Origin: a virus
Direction: 5' to 3' (one strand)
DNA: 36,905 nucleotides
Virus record (IMG/VR): IMGVR_UViG_3300013233_000041
Coordinates: 1 to 36,905 of that record
Part shown: in pieces, positions 3,395-13,353 of the stretch
Layout: every line of letters starts with the position of its first letter
Position numbering within the stretch: position 1 is the stretch's first letter
Made by a program: the position numbers and the translations under genes
Notes under the pieces: generated by a model
Told to the model about the DNA's origin: nothing
What the model saw: only the letters and a program-made list of their open reading frames with translations
The model's database searches: none

Positions 3395-4120
3395 TTAGTT
3401 TTCTGTAAACCAGTTTACTGTATAAAGTAGGTCCGAGTCTAAGTCAATAGTTTTAAGCCAGTTTAAGTAATTCCTAGGAATATCTTTAAAGTCTTGACCT
3501 TTATGTTTACCAAAAGTCATTTTCTGTATTAAGAAAGGTTTGTCACAATACTTAACAAAGTCTTCATCATCACAAGGAGTTTGCTCTTTTAAGAACTTAA
3601 ATAAAGACATTAACACTAGAACATCATTATCAGCTCTATGAGTAGATCCTTCATGAAATTCAGGCCTGTCTAGTCCTAAATCATATCGTAAGAACTGTAA
3701 AGCATGACTATCTGACTCAGGAAATAACCTTCTTGCTAGACGTAAGGTACATATAGTTTCCATATCTAGAATACTAATGATTTGATCTTGATTAGTACAC
3801 CTAGAAATAGCTTGGGCAATAATAGGGAAGTCAAAAGCACCATTATGAGCTACTACCCTAGTAACATCATAATCCCGTATATCTTTGACTAGTTCTTCGA
3901 GTACAAGTTCAATAGGTAGTCCTTTCATAACTACATCTTCAGTTATATGATGAACTGCTTTCGCCCCACTAGGAATAGTTTTCTTGTATTGGCAGATACA
4001 ATCTTTTATTCCTGTAAGGGGTGAACCAAACTCATCAACAACTACCCATGCAATCTCTAGGATATAGTCTTTTTCTGTATTTACACCTGTAGTTTCTGTA
4101 TCTAATAAAATATAGTTCAT
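3395..4120 (-). CDS. DEDDh 3'-5' exonuclease, ExoX-like
   Basis: A DnaQ-superfamily exonuclease. Exo I is DTETTG at residues 7-12 (Asp7, Glu9). Exo II is in VVAHNGAFDFPI. Exo III is the DEDDh signature HRADND. After the nuclease core the C-terminus carries a short module (MTFGKHKGQDFKDIPRNYLNWL) matching the C-terminal domain of exodeoxyribonuclease X and related phage proteins. The length of 241 aa is normal for ExoX-type enzymes (about 220). The start ATG overlaps the stop of the upstream membrane-protein gene as ATGA. Likely roles are degradation of host DNA or trimming 3' ends in replication or repair. The first is inference, since the nuclease family itself is clear. Confidence 0.9.
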   Translation of the reverse strand: MNYILLDTETTGVNTEKDYILEIAWVVVDEFGSPLTGIKDCICQYKKTIPSGAKAVHHITEDVVMKGLPIELVLEELVKDIRDYDVTRVVAHNGAFDFPIIAQAISRCTNQDQIISILDMETICTLRLARRLFPESDSHALQFLRYDLGLDRPEFHEGSTHRADNDVLVLMSLFKFLKEQTPCDDEDFVKYCDKPFLIQKMTFGKHKGQDFKDIPRNYLNWLKTIDLDSDLLYTVNWFTEN

Positions 4121-6661: not shown

Positions 6662-8005
6662 ATGGCTATTGATTTACAGAAATACATTATTGCCGAAGTA
6701 GTCTCTAGTAAAGACTTAGATTTGTTCCTGTCTTTATATAAAGAGTGGTTTTCTGGGCCATCAGAAACAGCCTATACTGCTTTGAAAGATGTACACGTAC
6801 GAACGGGTAAAGTAGCTACTCCCGAAGAACTAGCTGTTGTTAATGCTAGTTGTTCAAAAGTTACAGATTGGATTGCCGAGTACAATGACACGGAGATTGA
6901 CCAATCTCTAGTATTGTCAGAACTCGAAAATGATTTTGCTAGGAACAAAGTTCTTGACTTTGTGATTTCTACAACTTCTTCAATAAAAGATAAGTCTGCT
7001 GAGGAATTAACTGCAGATTTATCAGATATGCAGCAAAGTCTCACACTAGGAAGTGCTCAGACTAAAGACACGGTGACAGATGCTATTGATGCAGAGTACG
7101 AAAATGACGAGTGCGAACTTATCTCCTCAGGATTTAGTGACTTCTATGACGAAGAAGCAGGCGGATTTGCCTATGGAGAACTTATTGTTGTAGGTGGAGA
7201 GCGTGGAAGTGGTAAGTCTATTATAACTCAGAACCTAACAAACCATCACTACCTAGAGCACAGAAACACTGTAGCCTACTTTAATATAGAAATGTCAAAA
7301 GCTAACGTAGCTAAAAGATTCCTAGCACAGATTGCTAGTGTTCCATACAATGATATACGACGCAGATCATTAACTACACGGCAAAAAATCACTATCGAGT
7401 CTAGCAAAGCTTCCTTCTTTTACAAGCCTTGCTCTGATATTGATAGGTTAATAACGGAACTTAGCCAAGAGGTAATAGACTTCCGACAATTTACAGATGG
7501 TTTAAAAGACCTAGAAAGAAATGAACATAAATACTTTAATATAGATGACGCTAGCCTAACAATGGAAAAGCTAGAACAAACCATTGCAAGGTTAGTAGGG
7601 GAGCATGATCTACGATTTGTGAATGTAGACTATATTAATATTATTAAAGATGGCGGTACAAAGGATCAAGATTGGTTAATCCAGCAACGAAAAGCAGAAA
7701 GACTAAAAGAGATTGCTAAAGCCTATAACATTGTATTACTAACGCCTTATCAGATTCATAGTGATGGTTCTGCTAAACGGGCCAAGGCTATTGAAGATTC
7801 AGTGGATAGAAGCTTTAAGTTCTTCCCTAAGATAAACCAAGAAACAGGCTTACCTGAAAGTGATATTAAGGTATACCAAGCAAAAGCTAGAGACAATGAG
7901 CCTTTTCCGTTCTATGTTGGAATGCAATGGGATTACTTAAAACTTAGAAAAGAAGTGTCTAATAGCTTCGAGGATAAAGAACGAGCAGGAACAGGAGCAT
8001 CCTAG
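6662..8005 (+). CDS. dnaB: DnaB-like replicative DNA helicase
   Basis: A RecA-fold hexameric helicase of the DnaB family that unwinds DNA at the fork. Walker A is GGERGSGKS (about residues 178-186). The following AYFNIEMSKANVAKRFLAQI corresponds to the DnaB motif containing the catalytic Glu. Walker B is RFVNVDYINII (Asp near 323). A Gln/His sensor is seen in TPYQIHSDG. The N-terminal 140 residues are helical and only loosely like the DnaB N-domain. The 447 aa length is typical. AAGGAG lies five bases before the ATG. It is directly followed by primase (stop then ATG with no gap), the usual helicase-primase pairing. Confidence 0.93.
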   Translation: MAIDLQKYIIAEVVSSKDLDLFLSLYKEWFSGPSETAYTALKDVHVRTGKVATPEELAVVNASCSKVTDWIAEYNDTEIDQSLVLSELENDFARNKVLDFVISTTSSIKDKSAEELTADLSDMQQSLTLGSAQTKDTVTDAIDAEYENDECELISSGFSDFYDEEAGGFAYGELIVVGGERGSGKSIITQNLTNHHYLEHRNTVAYFNIEMSKANVAKRFLAQIASVPYNDIRRRSLTTRQKITIESSKASFFYKPCSDIDRLITELSQEVIDFRQFTDGLKDLERNEHKYFNIDDASLTMEKLEQTIARLVGEHDLRFVNVDYINIIKDGGTKDQDWLIQQRKAERLKEIAKAYNIVLLTPYQIHSDGSAKRAKAIEDSVDRSFKFFPKINQETGLPESDIKVYQAKARDNEPFPFYVGMQWDYLKLRKEVSNSFEDKERAGTGAS

Positions 8006-8869
8006 ATGGCCGGTTATATTCAATCTCTACTAGAAAGTAAAGGTATTAGCGTACGAGTCTCTTCTAAAGACCTACTAATTCCTTGTCTAAATCCCGATCA
8101 TGATGATAGCAATCCTAGCTTACGCATTGATGAGGCCACAGGTTTGTTTCATTGTCTGTCTTGTGGGTTTAAAGGGGGTATGCACAGACTTCATGAAATA
8201 CTAGAAGTCGAAGCTCCCCCTGCTCAACTCCTCCTTGAAGTCAAGATGGCCGAAGCTACTAGGATTATTGATAAAGCTACTAGAATCCTTAAGGTAGAAA
8301 TACCTGAAAATATAACACTTATTAGTGAGGGTATAAGAAACCTCCACCCAAGTACCCTAATTGACCACAAAATGTATTTAACAGATAACTCCCCATATGT
8401 TAGCATACCTATTCACGATGAAACGGGAAAGTTAAGGTTTATCGAATCGAGAGCCTTAGACAATACCTTACCTAAGTATCTTCGCTTACCTGAAGATGTC
8501 ACAGTAGACTTCTTATATAATATAGACTGCGGAGCTCCATGCGTAGTGCTAGTAGAAGGAATCTTTGACTATCTAAATCTATATGATCTAGGCGTGCGAA
8601 ATGCTTGTCCAATCTTTGGGTTATATAACTTTACTAAGAAAATCGTAAGGGATTTAAAGAGCGTCGGCGTAGTTAAGGTAGTAACAATGCTAGATAACGA
8701 TATTCCTGGACAGAAGGCTTCATCTATTATTAGGAAAACAGCCGAGATAGGAGGACTAATGTCAGATACAATAATCCCATTAACAGATCCAGGGGACTTA
8801 GATAAACAGCAACTATTTGGGTTACTAAAAGAGAAAAACTACACAATTAAGAATGGCTATATACTTTGA
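8006..8869 (+). CDS. DnaG-type DNA primase (zinc-binding and Toprim domains)
   Basis: It synthesises RNA primers for lagging-strand DNA. The N-terminus has a CHC2-type zinc finger: Cys27, His32, Cys50 and Cys53 (CLNPDH, CLSCGF). The Toprim domain follows, with the catalytic Glu in VLVEGIFDYL (Glu184) and the DxD pair in TMLDNDIPGQ (Asp230, Asp232). At 287 aa it is a short phage primase without the DnaG helicase-interaction domain. The ATG directly abuts the helicase stop. Its stop overlaps the start of a small membrane ORF as TGATG. Confidence 0.92.
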   Translation: MAGYIQSLLESKGISVRVSSKDLLIPCLNPDHDDSNPSLRIDEATGLFHCLSCGFKGGMHRLHEILEVEAPPAQLLLEVKMAEATRIIDKATRILKVEIPENITLISEGIRNLHPSTLIDHKMYLTDNSPYVSIPIHDETGKLRFIESRALDNTLPKYLRLPEDVTVDFLYNIDCGAPCVVLVEGIFDYLNLYDLGVRNACPIFGLYNFTKKIVRDLKSVGVVKVVTMLDNDIPGQKASSIIRKTAEIGGLMSDTIIPLTDPGDLDKQQLFGLLKEKNYTIKNGYIL

Positions 8870-8979
8870 TGGTACTGAGTGGCGTGATCTGTATTATAGC
8901 AGCAATCGTCGGACATGACCAAGGGCTAGGAGCAGTCGCACTAGCAGTAATTGGCCTACACTTTATAAGGAGCGCCTAA
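8869..8979 (+). CDS. Tiny hydrophobic peptide (36 aa) coupled to primase
   Basis: An ATG overlaps the primase stop (TGATG), typical of translational coupling. The frame runs 36 codons and stops just before the polymerase start. The peptide is hydrophobic throughout (LSGVICIIAAIVG, then AVALAVIGLHF) and could form one or two short membrane segments. It fills a gap that otherwise separates two replication genes. No family is recognised. It could be a real micro-protein or a chance frame in an intergenic spacer that also holds the polymerase ribosome site. Confidence 0.5.
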   Translation: MVLSGVICIIAAIVGHDQGLGAVALAVIGLHFIRSA

Positions 8980-8981
8980 CA

Positions 8982-10478
8982 TTGAAAAAGATTGCATTTG
9001 TCTTCGATATCCCGAAATCTGGTAGCAAAGACAACGATATTATAACTAGATTTTTAGAGCCAGTTGTCTCCTATGATTTGCTGTATCTAGTAGATGACCC
9101 TACACTAAAGCGCGTTCTAGTAAAAGACATTACGCTAGACATTGCCTCCCTAGAAGAATATGACTTCATAGTTCCAGTAGGGGCTGAAGTATTCAAAAAG
9201 GTAATTAAATTAAAGGGTGGAGTTACCAAGTTCAACGGAGTTCCTATAGATGAGCCTTTTAGGGCTGTTCCTATCGTAAACCCCGCTATCGTGTATATTA
9301 ACCCTAGTGAAGAAACAAAAATCAGAGAAGCCTTCAATGTTGTTTATCAGATGTGGACTCATGGTTTTTCCGTAGCAACTTCATCTGATAAAGATTACGA
9401 ACATGTACAGTCAGTAGATAGATTTAAGCAGCTTATAGATGGATGGGTAACCGATGGCGTTATGCTAGCATTTGATACGGAGACTACTAGCTTAGATCCT
9501 TTTATGGGTGAAATAATCGGGGCTTCCTTCTCAAACAAAGAACATACGGGCTACTTCGTAGAAAAGGATATTCTAGAACTTGCCCTTGAAGATTTTAAGC
9601 ATCTACTAAGCGGTGTAATTCCTATCCTTATGCATAATAGTAAGTTTGATAAGAAGTTTATTAAGAAACACTATAATATTGATATTCCAGTATTTCATGA
9701 TACTCTAATTATCCACTACTTAATGTTATCACAGAAGAAAGGAACACACTCCCTTAAACTTCTAGCAATGACGTACTCAGACCTAGGAGACTATTCTACT
9801 GAACTAGACAATTATATTACAACCTTTTGCCGTCAAAATAAGATTAAGAAAGAGGACTTCAACTACGGTATGATTGATATAGACATTTTGTCTCCTTATG
9901 CCTGTGGTGATGTCGATGCAACACTGCAAGTGATGAATAATATGGGTAGACCTACCTATAAAGAGGCAGATCCTCTAACTAAGAAGTGCTACAATGAAAT
10001 TATGTTACCAGCAGTAGATATGTTAATGGAATTAGAACTAGCAGGTGCTCCTATAGATCATGACTACTTAACTGAGTTAGACTCACTATTTGAAGATAAT
10101 ATAAGAGAAGCAGAGACGGCAATGGCTGCTAATACTCACGTACAAAGACTAGAAAGACAGCAAGGTTGTCCTTTTAAAGCTAATAGTTATAGGCAGGTTG
10201 GTGAGTTGTTATTTAATATTGCTGGACTACCAGATGCGGGTAAAACAGACTCAGGTTCATTTAAAACTGACAAGGAAACCCTTTTAGGACTAGCTGATAA
10301 AGGACATGAACTTCCACAGCTTATCCTAGACCTTAGAGCCTCTGGTAAAATGAGAGGAACATACACACAGAATATCATTGGTATGGCAGAAGCTAATGGT
10401 AGAGTTAGGGGAACCTTTAACTTATGCTTAACAGAGTCCGGAAGACTATCTAGTAGTGCTGACACGGGGGACTCATAA
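8982..10478 (+). CDS. DNA polymerase family A, N-terminal half: UDG-like region, 3'-5' exonuclease, thumb (split gene part 1)
   Basis: Residues 1-125 resemble a uracil-DNA glycosylase-type fold (VPVGAEVFKK, RAVPIVNPAIVY), as in N-terminal extensions of other phage PolA proteins. Residues 160-320 are the DEDDy exonuclease: FDTETTSLDP (Asp165, Glu167), LMHNSKFD (Asp223) and YACGDVDATL (Tyr306, Asp310). After this come the thumb and the start of the palm up to ESGRLSSS. Six further codons then lead to a stop. In whole PolA proteins the GRLSS motif is followed at once by the QNIP motif, so this chain lacks motifs A, B and C. It starts at TTG behind AAGGAG at nine bases. Proofreading activity may exist alone, but synthesis would need the partner at 10720-11559. 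Confidence 0.93.
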   Translation: MKKIAFVFDIPKSGSKDNDIITRFLEPVVSYDLLYLVDDPTLKRVLVKDITLDIASLEEYDFIVPVGAEVFKKVIKLKGGVTKFNGVPIDEPFRAVPIVNPAIVYINPSEETKIREAFNVVYQMWTHGFSVATSSDKDYEHVQSVDRFKQLIDGWVTDGVMLAFDTETTSLDPFMGEIIGASFSNKEHTGYFVEKDILELALEDFKHLLSGVIPILMHNSKFDKKFIKKHYNIDIPVFHDTLIIHYLMLSQKKGTHSLKLLAMTYSDLGDYSTELDNYITTFCRQNKIKKEDFNYGMIDIDILSPYACGDVDATLQVMNNMGRPTYKEADPLTKKCYNEIMLPAVDMLMELELAGAPIDHDYLTELDSLFEDNIREAETAMAANTHVQRLERQQGCPFKANSYRQVGELLFNIAGLPDAGKTDSGSFKTDKETLLGLADKGHELPQLILDLRASGKMRGTYTQNIIGMAEANGRVRGTFNLCLTESGRLSSSADTGDS

Positions 10479-10720
10479 TGCAGAAGATTAAGAGTCTTAT
10501 AGAAGATGGGAAAGCAAACCTTACTAGCATAGTTACAGTAAAATACGACCAAGTCCCTTATATAGTGGGTGAATGGTTACTAGACCATCATGTTGGGGAC
10601 ACTGATTACGAGAAAGCGTCTCACTCATTAGAATATGGGAATGATAAAGAAATGATAGCCCTAGTGGAAAGCTGGACAATAAGCGGCCTTCCTATATTTG
10701 TATTAAAAGGAGATAAATAG
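10478..10720 (+). CDS. Unknown 80-aa protein inserted between the two polymerase halves
   Basis: The ATG overlaps the stop of polymerase part 1 (TAATG) and has GGGGGA upstream. Its TAG overlaps the GTG of polymerase part 2. The sequence (MQKIKSLIEDGKANLTSIVT to IFVLKGDK) is acidic and soluble. It has normal amino-acid composition and codon use for this phage, so it looks like a true gene rather than intron filler. It has no homing-endonuclease motif (no GIY-YIG, LAGLIDADG or HNH), although such an element could have created the break originally. The function is unknown. A subunit that helps the polymerase halves assemble is speculation. Confidence 0.7.
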   Translation: MQKIKSLIEDGKANLTSIVTVKYDQVPYIVGEWLLDHHVGDTDYEKASHSLEYGNDKEMIALVESWTISGLPIFVLKGDK

Positions 10721-11559
10721 TGGCTAACTATAAACTTAACTTCCAGAATATTCCGGCTAGACGCAAGGATGTAAAGAAAGTTTTCAAAGCTAGAGAAGGC
10801 TACACAATTATAAATGCAGATTTGGCTACGGCTGAGGTTTGGATTGCTGCTGCGTTGTCTGGTGATACTTTTCTACAAAATGCATTTATCTCTGGTCTAG
10901 ACTTTCACTCCTTTATTGCTAAGACAGTATTCTCCCTAGAGTGCTCTGTTGACGATATTAAAGAAAAATACTCAACAGAGCGGCAGTCTGCTAAAACAAT
11001 TACCTTTGCTATTCTATATGGTGCTTCAGTTTACCGTGTGTTTATGGAGTTTAAAAGTTTCGGGCTAGATATTTCAATGGATAAAACACAAGCTATTATT
11101 GACGACTACTTTGCTAATGCTAAAGGTCTTAAAGTATGGCTTGACTCTAATAACTTAACACTCCGTAGAACAGGCAAATTATTATACGCACAAGGCCGTG
11201 TTCGTACAATCTCAGATGTCTTTAATGTTAATAGTAAAGTAGTAGATCACGCTGTACGATCTGGATTAAACTCCCTATTCCAAGGTCCAGCTAGTGACGT
11301 TATGCTTATGGGATGTTCTGACTTCTTTAAAGACTATTGTAATCCTAAAGGTTGGATAACAAATGACCTAGTAAAACCTTTTACAATCGTCCATGACTCA
11401 CTAACATCAGAAGTACATAACTCTGTGGTAGATGAATACAAAGCGGGGCTGAAAGAGTCTATTCAACGTCATAGATATTTCCTTCCTAAAGACTTTCACG
11501 AGACATGCCCGATTGGTGTAGACTTCGAGCAAGGTCCAAACTGGGGTGAGGTTGTTTGA
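10720..11559 (+). CDS. DNA polymerase family A, C-terminal half: palm and fingers (split gene part 2)
   Basis: It starts at GTG behind AAAAGGAG. The product begins ANYKLNFQNIPARR, the QNIP motif that normally follows GRLSS in one chain. Motif A is INADLATAEVW (Asp34, Glu39). Motif B, the fingers O-helix, is RQSAKTITFAILYG (Arg88, Lys92, Phe96, Tyr100, Gly101). Motif C is IVHDS (His225, Asp226), with Ser in place of the more usual Glu. All residues for metal and nucleotide binding are present. With part 1 this gives a complete polymerase of about 777 residues, somewhat shorter than T5 polymerase (about 855 from memory). The two halves are in different frames, so a simple stop-codon read-through cannot join them. 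Confidence 0.93.
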   Translation: MANYKLNFQNIPARRKDVKKVFKAREGYTIINADLATAEVWIAAALSGDTFLQNAFISGLDFHSFIAKTVFSLECSVDDIKEKYSTERQSAKTITFAILYGASVYRVFMEFKSFGLDISMDKTQAIIDDYFANAKGLKVWLDSNNLTLRRTGKLLYAQGRVRTISDVFNVNSKVVDHAVRSGLNSLFQGPASDVMLMGCSDFFKDYCNPKGWITNDLVKPFTIVHDSLTSEVHNSVVDEYKAGLKESIQRHRYFLPKDFHETCPIGVDFEQGPNWGEVV

Positions 11560-12035
11560 TAACCTTAGCTAACCCCCTCCTAGTTAGGTTTCCTAGTAGT
11601 GTCATAACTGCTTCTACTATTGTTAAGGAAACCAACGATTACGTCATACTAGACGATATGACAATAAATCTTAAAAACCCTACTAAGAGTAGTTCAATAA
11701 AAGGAAACCCATTACTGTGCATCGAAGACCTAATAAGAATACCTTTATCTAGGACAACTAGGCAAAGATTTCTATTAGACTTTTCTAGTAAGCTTCTATA
11801 TAGACTGGGAAAATCTGTAGAGGTGGTTATTTCTGTGAGAAAAATTAAGTGCATAACCGATACCTTTTTATACTGTGAAGGCTACTCGTTCCCAATTAGA
11901 CATGACCACACAGTAGACGATCAAGAAAATTCTATGTCACTATTTGCAAAACTAGGGATATGGAATAAAATACCAATATTCATGGAGGTTCTCCATTCGT
12001 ACCCAGAAAAAAAGCCAAGACCCTTCAAAATATGA
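11556..12035 (+). CDS. Hypothetical protein (159 aa) between polymerase and helicase
   Basis: It starts at TTG overlapping the polymerase stop (TTTGA), with TGAGG a few bases upstream. The protein is basic and beta-rich (STIVKETNDYVILDDMTINL, then KSVEVVISVRKIKCITDTFL) and has no transmembrane segment. I do not recognise a family. The last 41 bases overlap the start that I assign to the following helicase. Its place inside the replication cluster suggests a replication accessory role. Confidence 0.72.
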   Translation: MITLANPLLVRFPSSVITASTIVKETNDYVILDDMTINLKNPTKSSSIKGNPLLCIEDLIRIPLSRTTRQRFLLDFSSKLLYRLGKSVEVVISVRKIKCITDTFLYCEGYSFPIRHDHTVDDQENSMSLFAKLGIWNKIPIFMEVLHSYPEKKPRPFKI

Positions 12036-13353
12036 GATAGTTTTACTGGATAAAATATATTTCAAGTCTGCTGCTTTAGCTAACCAAGACTGCTTTGTAG
12101 ATGAGTTTAGTTATATGGACGACGATACATTCCAAAGACTATTCCTTTTTACCTTCTATGCCGAAAGAGATATGTACTCTCTACCAAAAGGTTATATTGA
12201 TAAACTAATACCTTTTCTAAAGAAAAACCATGAAATTATTAGTAAAGAAGCAATACCTAAACTTAAAAGGGATCTTACCTTTCAGAAAGAACTAAGACCT
12301 GAACAAGTCCAACTCCTAGCTAAGTGGGGAGGAGGTTCTGGTATGGTAGTAGCTAGAGCGGGGTTTGGTAAGACTGTAGTAGCTAGTAAGTTAATAGAAA
12401 CTTATGGGGTCAGAACACTTATTCTAGTACCAACAATACGAATACTACAACAATGGAAAGAGTCATTGAATACTTTCTTAGACTGCAGACCTGGAATTAT
12501 AGCTAGTGGTGTTTTTGACTATGATAAAGACATAGTAGTTGCATCACATAAGTCTCTTTTAAAAGCTGATAAGCTCGATTTAGTAAAAAAGCGATTTGGT
12601 TTGATTCTAGTAGATGAGTGTCATAAAGCTCCGGCTCCTAAGTTAATGTCTATAATTAACTCAATGTATGCTAAATACCGTATAGGATTTACGGCCACTC
12701 CTTATAGAAAAGACTTAAAACACTTCCACTTAGAAGGAATATTCGGAAATACCGTAATTGAACATAAGTCTGACTATATAAAAGCTAAAGTTAATATATT
12801 ACAGACTGACTTTATATTCCCATTCGGTGGTATGTCTGACTATAATGATGCCCTGTCTTCTATTGCTAGAAATCAAGAATTTAATTCCCTAGTAGTTAAT
12901 ACTATAAAGTCTTTATATGAAAAAGGAAGGCATATAATAGTAGTAACTCCTAGATTAGAACACATAGAGGTTCTAATGAAAAAGCTTACAGTTCCTTGTG
13001 GTCACATAGTATCTGAGAAGAATCAGAATGACAGAGATTGTAATACCGATTTGTTAAATAGTGTTTTTACCGAAGACAGGTCAGTTCTTTTTGGCACAAA
13101 TGGCCTAGTAGGAACTGGGTTTGACTTAGCTGTACTAGACACGTTAATTCTCCCTTATAGTTTTAACAATAAAGGAGAGCTTCTTCAGATTGTAGGTAGG
13201 ATAGAAAGGCAGTATCCCGACAAACTTAGTCCCCAGGTCTTTCACTTCTTCTTTAAGAATAGACTTATAACAGCTAATCAGCAGACTAATACCCTAGGAT
13301 TTTATAAGGAGTTAGGTCACGATGTTTATATAGACTCATCCTCGTTATCCTAA
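11995..13353 (+). CDS. SF2 DNA helicase, T5 D10-like, with probable ATT start
   Basis: A superfamily 2 helicase. Motif I is ARAGFGKTVVA. Motif II is LVDECHK (DECH). Motif III is GFTATPYR. Motif V lies in GLVGTGFDLAVLD. Motif VI is QIVGRIERQ. The first ATG (12115) would cut off a conserved-looking N-terminus. The frame is open upstream and reads KYEIVLLDKIYFKSAALANQ, typical of the beta-rich start of this helicase type. A GGAGG at 11984-11988 lies six bases before an in-frame ATT at 11995, and no other start codon exists between. From ATT the product is 452 aa, close to the 450 aa I recall for T5 D10. D10-type enzymes branch-migrate and unwind replication intermediates. Confidence 0.88.
   Translation: MRTQKKSQDPSKYEIVLLDKIYFKSAALANQDCFVDEFSYMDDDTFQRLFLFTFYAERDMYSLPKGYIDKLIPFLKKNHEIISKEAIPKLKRDLTFQKELRPEQVQLLAKWGGGSGMVVARAGFGKTVVASKLIETYGVRTLILVPTIRILQQWKESLNTFLDCRPGIIASGVFDYDKDIVVASHKSLLKADKLDLVKKRFGLILVDECHKAPAPKLMSIINSMYAKYRIGFTATPYRKDLKHFHLEGIFGNTVIEHKSDYIKAKVNILQTDFIFPFGGMSDYNDALSSIARNQEFNSLVVNTIKSLYEKGRHIIVVTPRLEHIEVLMKKLTVPCGHIVSEKNQNDRDCNTDLLNSVFTEDRSVLFGTNGLVGTGFDLAVLDTLILPYSFNNKGELLQIVGRIERQYPDKLSPQVFHFFFKNRLITANQQTNTLGFYKELGHDVYIDSSSLS

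Follow-up and report, generated by a model that had tools for sequence, protein, structure and literature searches.

The uncultured T5-like phage of IMG/VR record IMGVR_UViG_3300013233_000041 encodes its family A DNA polymerase (PolA) in two genes, with the chain broken between GRLSS and QNIP and a separate 80-codon open reading frame (ORF) lying between the two parts. The window, that is, the whole stretch of DNA analyzed (36.9 kb; 36,905 nt), is probably a fragment of a genome. Judging from the sequence, we consider it likely that the two chains reassemble in trans into a PolA and that the 80-codon ORF is a passenger.

The left part of the window encodes, in order, a D5-like regulator, DnaB-like helicase, primase, polymerase, hypothetical protein, D10-like helicase, SSB-like protein, SbcD, and SbcC, and thus contains the helicase–primase–polymerase–D10 helicase order expected of the T5-like lineage. 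The hypothetical protein (159 aa; 11556–12035) occupies the slot of a small T5-like gene between the polymerase and the D10 helicase, and no similarity to the relatives searched was detected. A separate 241-aa exonuclease assigned to PHROG 192 (DNA polymerase exonuclease subunit) is encoded on the minus strand at 3395–4120 and co-exists with the intact exonuclease domain of the PolA N half.

Table 1 Features of the split polymerase locus and its replication neighborhood.
Feature	Coordinates	Strand	Basis
DnaB-like replicative helicase	6662..8005	+	synteny with T5-like phages
DNA primase	8006..8869	+	synteny with T5-like phages
Ribosome-binding site AAGGAG, N half	8967..8972	+	sequence
PolA N half, 498 aa, start TTG 8982	8982..10478	+	PF01612 58 bits; PF00476 positions 12–124
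Insert, 271 nt, relative to all intact relatives	10461..10731	+	between N-half A493 and C-half K5
GGGGGA, possible ribosome site of 80-codon ORF	10466..10471	+	sequence
Predicted hairpin over GGGGGA ribosome site and ATG	10468..10498	+	local fold −9.9 kcal/mol
80-codon ORF, function without assignment	10478..10720	+	codon score; no homologue
Ribosome-binding site AAAAGGAG, C half	10705..10712	+	sequence
PolA C half, 279 aa, start GTG 10720	10720..11559	+	PF00476 positions 125–381; model matching PolA palm/fingers
T5 D10-like helicase	12115..13353	+	synteny with T5-like phages

The N half comprises a DEDD 3′–5′ exonuclease, the thumb, and the first palm motif up to GRLSSSA, followed by a five-residue tail (DTGDS). 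The C half begins MANY-KLNFQNIP and comprises the palm/fingers portion. Matches to the Pfam DNA_pol_A profile end at position 124 in the N half (67 bits) and begin at position 125 in the C half (138 bits), so that the domain is complete over the two genes and cut between adjacent profile positions with no residue missing. The two halves and the small ORF occupy three different reading frames. The stop codon of the N half (TAA, 10476–10478) shares one base with the ATG of the 80-codon ORF at 10478 (TAATG), and the stop codon of the latter (TAG, 10718–10720) shares one base with the GTG of the C half (TAGTG). Alignment with intact T5-like relatives placed the last shared residue before the break at A493 (10458–10460) and the first after it at K5 (10732–10734), which defines a 271-nt insert with nothing lost. 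The preliminary description had reported a PolA split by an 80-codon gene that overlaps both halves, with the halves in different frames and each preceded by its own ribosome site; the profile cut, the alignment, and the coordinates bear out each of these points. A simple sequencing error is set aside, as it would not produce an insertion of 271 nt that contains a coding frame and a strong ribosome site and has an overlap at each end.

We then asked how related phages encode this site. All 238 loci from IMG/VR and named phages in which both halves could be placed, some contigs having been fetched more than once, were contiguous and in frame at the break site. The break therefore does fall inside a pair that is contiguous in PolA, as had been proposed, with the loop before QNIP as its exact spot; the N half keeps GRLSS and the C half keeps QNIP. 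Five loci were not placed as contiguous by the script: EF24C (L175) has one long ORF in its annotation, whose alignment shows a gap of 66 nt, three others (L174, L178, and L256) align too poorly near the break for judgement, and L171 is phage MEP401, which has a split PolA and belongs to another phage group. The nearest relatives found share 44–49% identity with the C half and 37–40% with the N half; the split and the small gene are known from one contig, with no close sister among the relatives searched, the best of which are about 40–48% identical. T5-like (Demerecviridae) isolates, which share lineage and gene order with the window, are 29–31% (N half) and 33–38% (C half) identical to it, but their polymerase is contiguous at the site in every isolate and relative examined.

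The catalytic residues of both activities are retained. The exonuclease residues D165, E167, D223, Y306, and D310 are kept in the N half and are invariant across the aligned intact relatives. In the C half, which carries QNIP and motifs A (D34, E39), B (R88, K92, F96, Y100), and C (H225, D226), all of these motif A–C residues are kept and are invariant in a 23-sequence alignment. As each half keeps all of its catalytic residues, the halves likely assemble into a working enzyme. AlphaFold2 modeling of the C half alone yielded a confident palm/fingers fold (pLDDT 87) that matches Taq and Bst PolA with a TM of about 0.7. Residues 1–15, including QNIP, are disordered in this lone model, which would fit a segment that needs the other chain.

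The 80-codon ORF, which takes 240 of the 271 nt of the insert, scores like a real gene: on the phage’s own codon usage it reached 0.161 bits/codon, a value that falls at the 36th percentile for chunks of true genes and exceeds 99.4% of wrong-frame chunks. Searches of phages, viral contigs, genome contigs, Pfam, PHROGs, NCBIfam, and the PDB returned no homologue of the 80-aa protein. Its AlphaFold model is of low confidence (pLDDT 65), and Foldseek matches to that model were discarded as meaningless. A predicted hairpin covers its possible ribosome site and ATG, and the surrounding 110-nt region folds with a z of −1.80. We tentatively suggest that the hairpin probably couples translation of the 80-codon ORF to that of the N half, in that ribosomes finishing the N half would open it and expose the ribosome site and ATG. 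Like the TAATG of the window, a UAAUG overlap joins T4 mobE to the gene before it (PMC2988022), and the mobE ribosome site is similarly sequestered by a hairpin, according to a title in the reference list of that paper. A possible target-site duplication at the ends of the insert (TAGTGCTGAC / TAGTGGCTAAC) was rejected, as 14% of random 20-mer pairs match or beat its score.

The position of the break raises the question of splicing, since introns are frequent in phage polymerase genes and lie at conserved motifs. In a PDB alignment, C-half residues L6–N7 fall on the P–N of Klenow PNLQNIP, which we take to be P674–N675 in E. coli numbering. The break would thus lie within about two residues of a known group I intron site at residue 674. 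Introns of the phages SPO1, SP82, Bastille, and Pf-WMP3 are located at this residue, and that of phiL7 at 676 (PMC3428280); by translation, the 882-nt SPO1 intron divides GRLSSNEP|NAQQFP. These phage PolA introns interrupt the polymerase at essentially the same place as the window break, but they undergo splicing and contain a ribozyme, in most cases along with an HNH endonuclease, whereas no sign of either is seen in the window insert. A very short group I intron containing the 80-codon ORF, spliced out to leave one polymerase chain, would account for the position, and in-frame junctions with U before and G at the end exist (for example, an intron at 10458–10722 giving GRLSSS-ANY-KLNFQNIP). 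Each such junction, however, adds or removes residues compared with relatives. Neither a catalytic core, sought with covariance models, nor a stable folded RNA was found in the insert: Rfam gave no intron match at E ≤ 10, and folding was no better than that of shuffles (z −0.28), whereas the start of the SPO1 intron gave a 25.6-bit Rfam match (fold z −3.75), and L249, a T5-like relative whose intron lies at motif B, gave 43.4 bits. Rfam also detected nothing in the polymerase interruption of SPG24, a member of a phage group with reported introns (PMC11878797), so the negative for the insert is strong rather than absolute. With most of the insert being a codon-biased ORF, a ribozyme core would also have to coincide with coding sequence, and we regard splicing as improbable. 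An intein, split or contiguous, was likewise rejected: this would call for one continuous frame or for halves of adequate length with C, S, or T at +1, but the locus has three frames, the halves extend past the shared sequence by just 5 and 4 residues, and K is the first shared residue after the break. Fusion of all three products by two −1 frameshifts was also rejected. A TAA (10714–10716) closes the C frame shortly before the start codon of the C half, and frameshifting within the small gene ahead of this stop would therefore yield no fusion to the C half; a shift at the GGGGG run could formally fuse the N half to the small ORF.

Other interrupted polymerases were encountered among the relatives. 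Four T5-like loci (L249–L252) are interrupted at motif B (KAITFG|YGSG; 6282–7370 in L249) by an endonuclease-like ORF that appears LAGLIDADG-like by eye, and the interruption in L249 is a group I intron by Rfam. In Salmonella phage Kenya-K36 (L006; 2423–6067), the DNA polymerase carries an insert of ~360 residues in its exonuclease domain with intein-like ends (YA|CLTHDS...VVHN|C), in a gene annotated just as DNA polymerase. Two polymerase families, PHROG 12241 and PHROG 2573, respectively end and begin close to the window break and may represent other split or intron-annotated polymerases. Given these boundaries, further PolA genes that are split or interrupted by introns have probably been annotated as if they encoded separate proteins.

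A split PolA with a small ORF between its halves has been published for the Methylophilales (OM43) phages MEP401 and MEP402 of the Zobellviridae (PMC10580990). As in the window, adjacent genes encode the exonuclease with the N-terminal PolA domain and then the C-terminal PolA domain, and the ORF between them is of similar size (77 aa there, 80 aa in the window). The phage groups, however, are unrelated, and direct comparison showed that the 77-aa (gp14-like) ORF and the 80-aa ORF are also unrelated. The MEP401/402 break lies about 20 residues further downstream, after QNF..SRYGE and before motif A (between SRYGE and MILNADAKALEW), whereas that of the window lies upstream of QNIP and is thus not of the MEP401 type. 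We surveyed 102 loci from IMG/VR relatives of MEP401 (L257–L284 and L285–L363; some contigs were included twice) and found the polymerase split in every one. A gp14-like ORF lies between the halves in 60 of these; the others have different ORFs (small membrane-like or 97-aa), short spacers, or nothing. In L362, the insert is a longer ORF that may be endonuclease-like, and in L327 and L329 the N stop overlaps the C start by one base with nothing between. Splicing does not readily explain such variation, which shows that a phage lineage can stably maintain PolA as two genes with no constant third partner.

Split replication enzymes are also known from other families. The split family B polymerase gp43A/gp43B of Aeromonas phages 25 and 44RR, whose two parts co-purify with polymerase activity, and the split NrdA of Aeh1 resemble the window in that an inserted gene or spacer cuts a replication enzyme, which there works as two chains (PMC2988022); they differ in enzyme family and in being interrupted by homing endonucleases or by a spacer that is not translated. 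The N-terminal exon product of Pf-WMP3, taken alone, is reported to act as an exonuclease and not to synthesize DNA (PMC3428280, data not shown there); any polymerase activity of the window halves would hence rest entirely on their assembly.

The MEP401-type loci also bear on whether the enzyme has two parts or three, which had been left open at the outset. Were the 80-aa protein to bridge the halves as a structural subunit of a three-chain PolA, this would explain why a gene that looks real is co-encoded between them and overlaps both, and MEP401-type phages often have a conserved ORF of 77 aa at the corresponding position. The replacement of that ORF by unrelated ones, or its absence, argues that no bridge is needed there, however, and the 80-aa protein has neither a detected homologue nor a confident model. 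We therefore think a third structural chain unlikely, and we similarly doubt that polymerase assembly depends on, or is regulated by, an 80-aa protein sitting at the break beside the primer terminus; rather than encoding a polymerase subunit, the gene is in all likelihood a passenger that entered a hot spot for mobile elements. The two-part form is favored by the conserved catalytic residues, the lack of evidence for splicing or of a frameshift route, the intact homologues, and the MEP401 precedent. A dead or dying pseudogene, with replication left to a host enzyme or to one encoded elsewhere in the genome, is very improbable. It would agree with the contig being a fragment and with a modestly raised divergence, but both frames are fully open with good ribosome sites, no catalytic residue has been lost, and the identity of the polymerase halves to relatives is at least that of the helicase, primase, and D10 helicase. 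The contig also contains no second PolA; a second intact polymerase elsewhere in the genome, with the split pieces inactive, is what the preliminary description had named as telling against a functional split. In gene trees, the window forms a long branch for every gene; relative to three control genes, the N half shows unremarkable divergence (1.04, seventh among 47 taxa), and that of the C half (1.31) is the highest of the 47, with intact relatives next at 1.27 and 1.23. An identity-regression rate test placed both halves about 2.7 sd low and was given less weight because the control genes are near saturation. Since the long branch affects all genes and the slight excess is confined to the C half, we do not read the divergence as decay. 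Finally, the locus comes from a single metagenomic contig, and a chimeric join of unrelated contigs could in principle mimic a split. Correct polymerase halves nevertheless flank the insert on both sides with no residue lost, the codon usage of the insert matches that of the phage, and the start/stop overlaps are tight, which makes an assembly artefact scarcely credible.

Under the favored two-chain reading, one operon would produce the polymerase as two polypeptides: an N chain with the exonuclease, the thumb, and the first palm strand with GRLSS, and a C chain with QNIP, the fingers, and the remaining palm with motifs A, B, and C. These chains would fold separately and associate non-covalently to give a PolA of normal shape, in which GRLSS and QNIP would dock across the nick beside the primer terminus. 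The split may have arisen when a short gene entered the GRLSS–QNIP loop, beside a known mobile-intron hot spot, and new start and stop signals, by allowing translation of both halves, could have ensured its survival.

The initial suggestion that this break has no precedent was too strong, given the published MEP401/402 split (PMC10580990) and the introns at the site (PMC3428280). It holds for the position: a break inside the GRLSS/QNIP motif with no detected intron appears to be new among everything searched. A split PolA is therefore not a new category, and we take the window to represent a second, independent origin, this one from another phage family and with the break more tightly placed. 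Should the two chains assemble, PolA would tolerate a chain break next to the segment gripping the primer terminus, and the break would offer a ready-made split site for engineered, assembly-controlled polymerases. Together with the MEP401-type phages, the window would, if this is true, make the stretch from GRLSS to motif A a repeatedly used natural split site, suggesting a route from a mobile-element hot spot to a permanent two-subunit enzyme.
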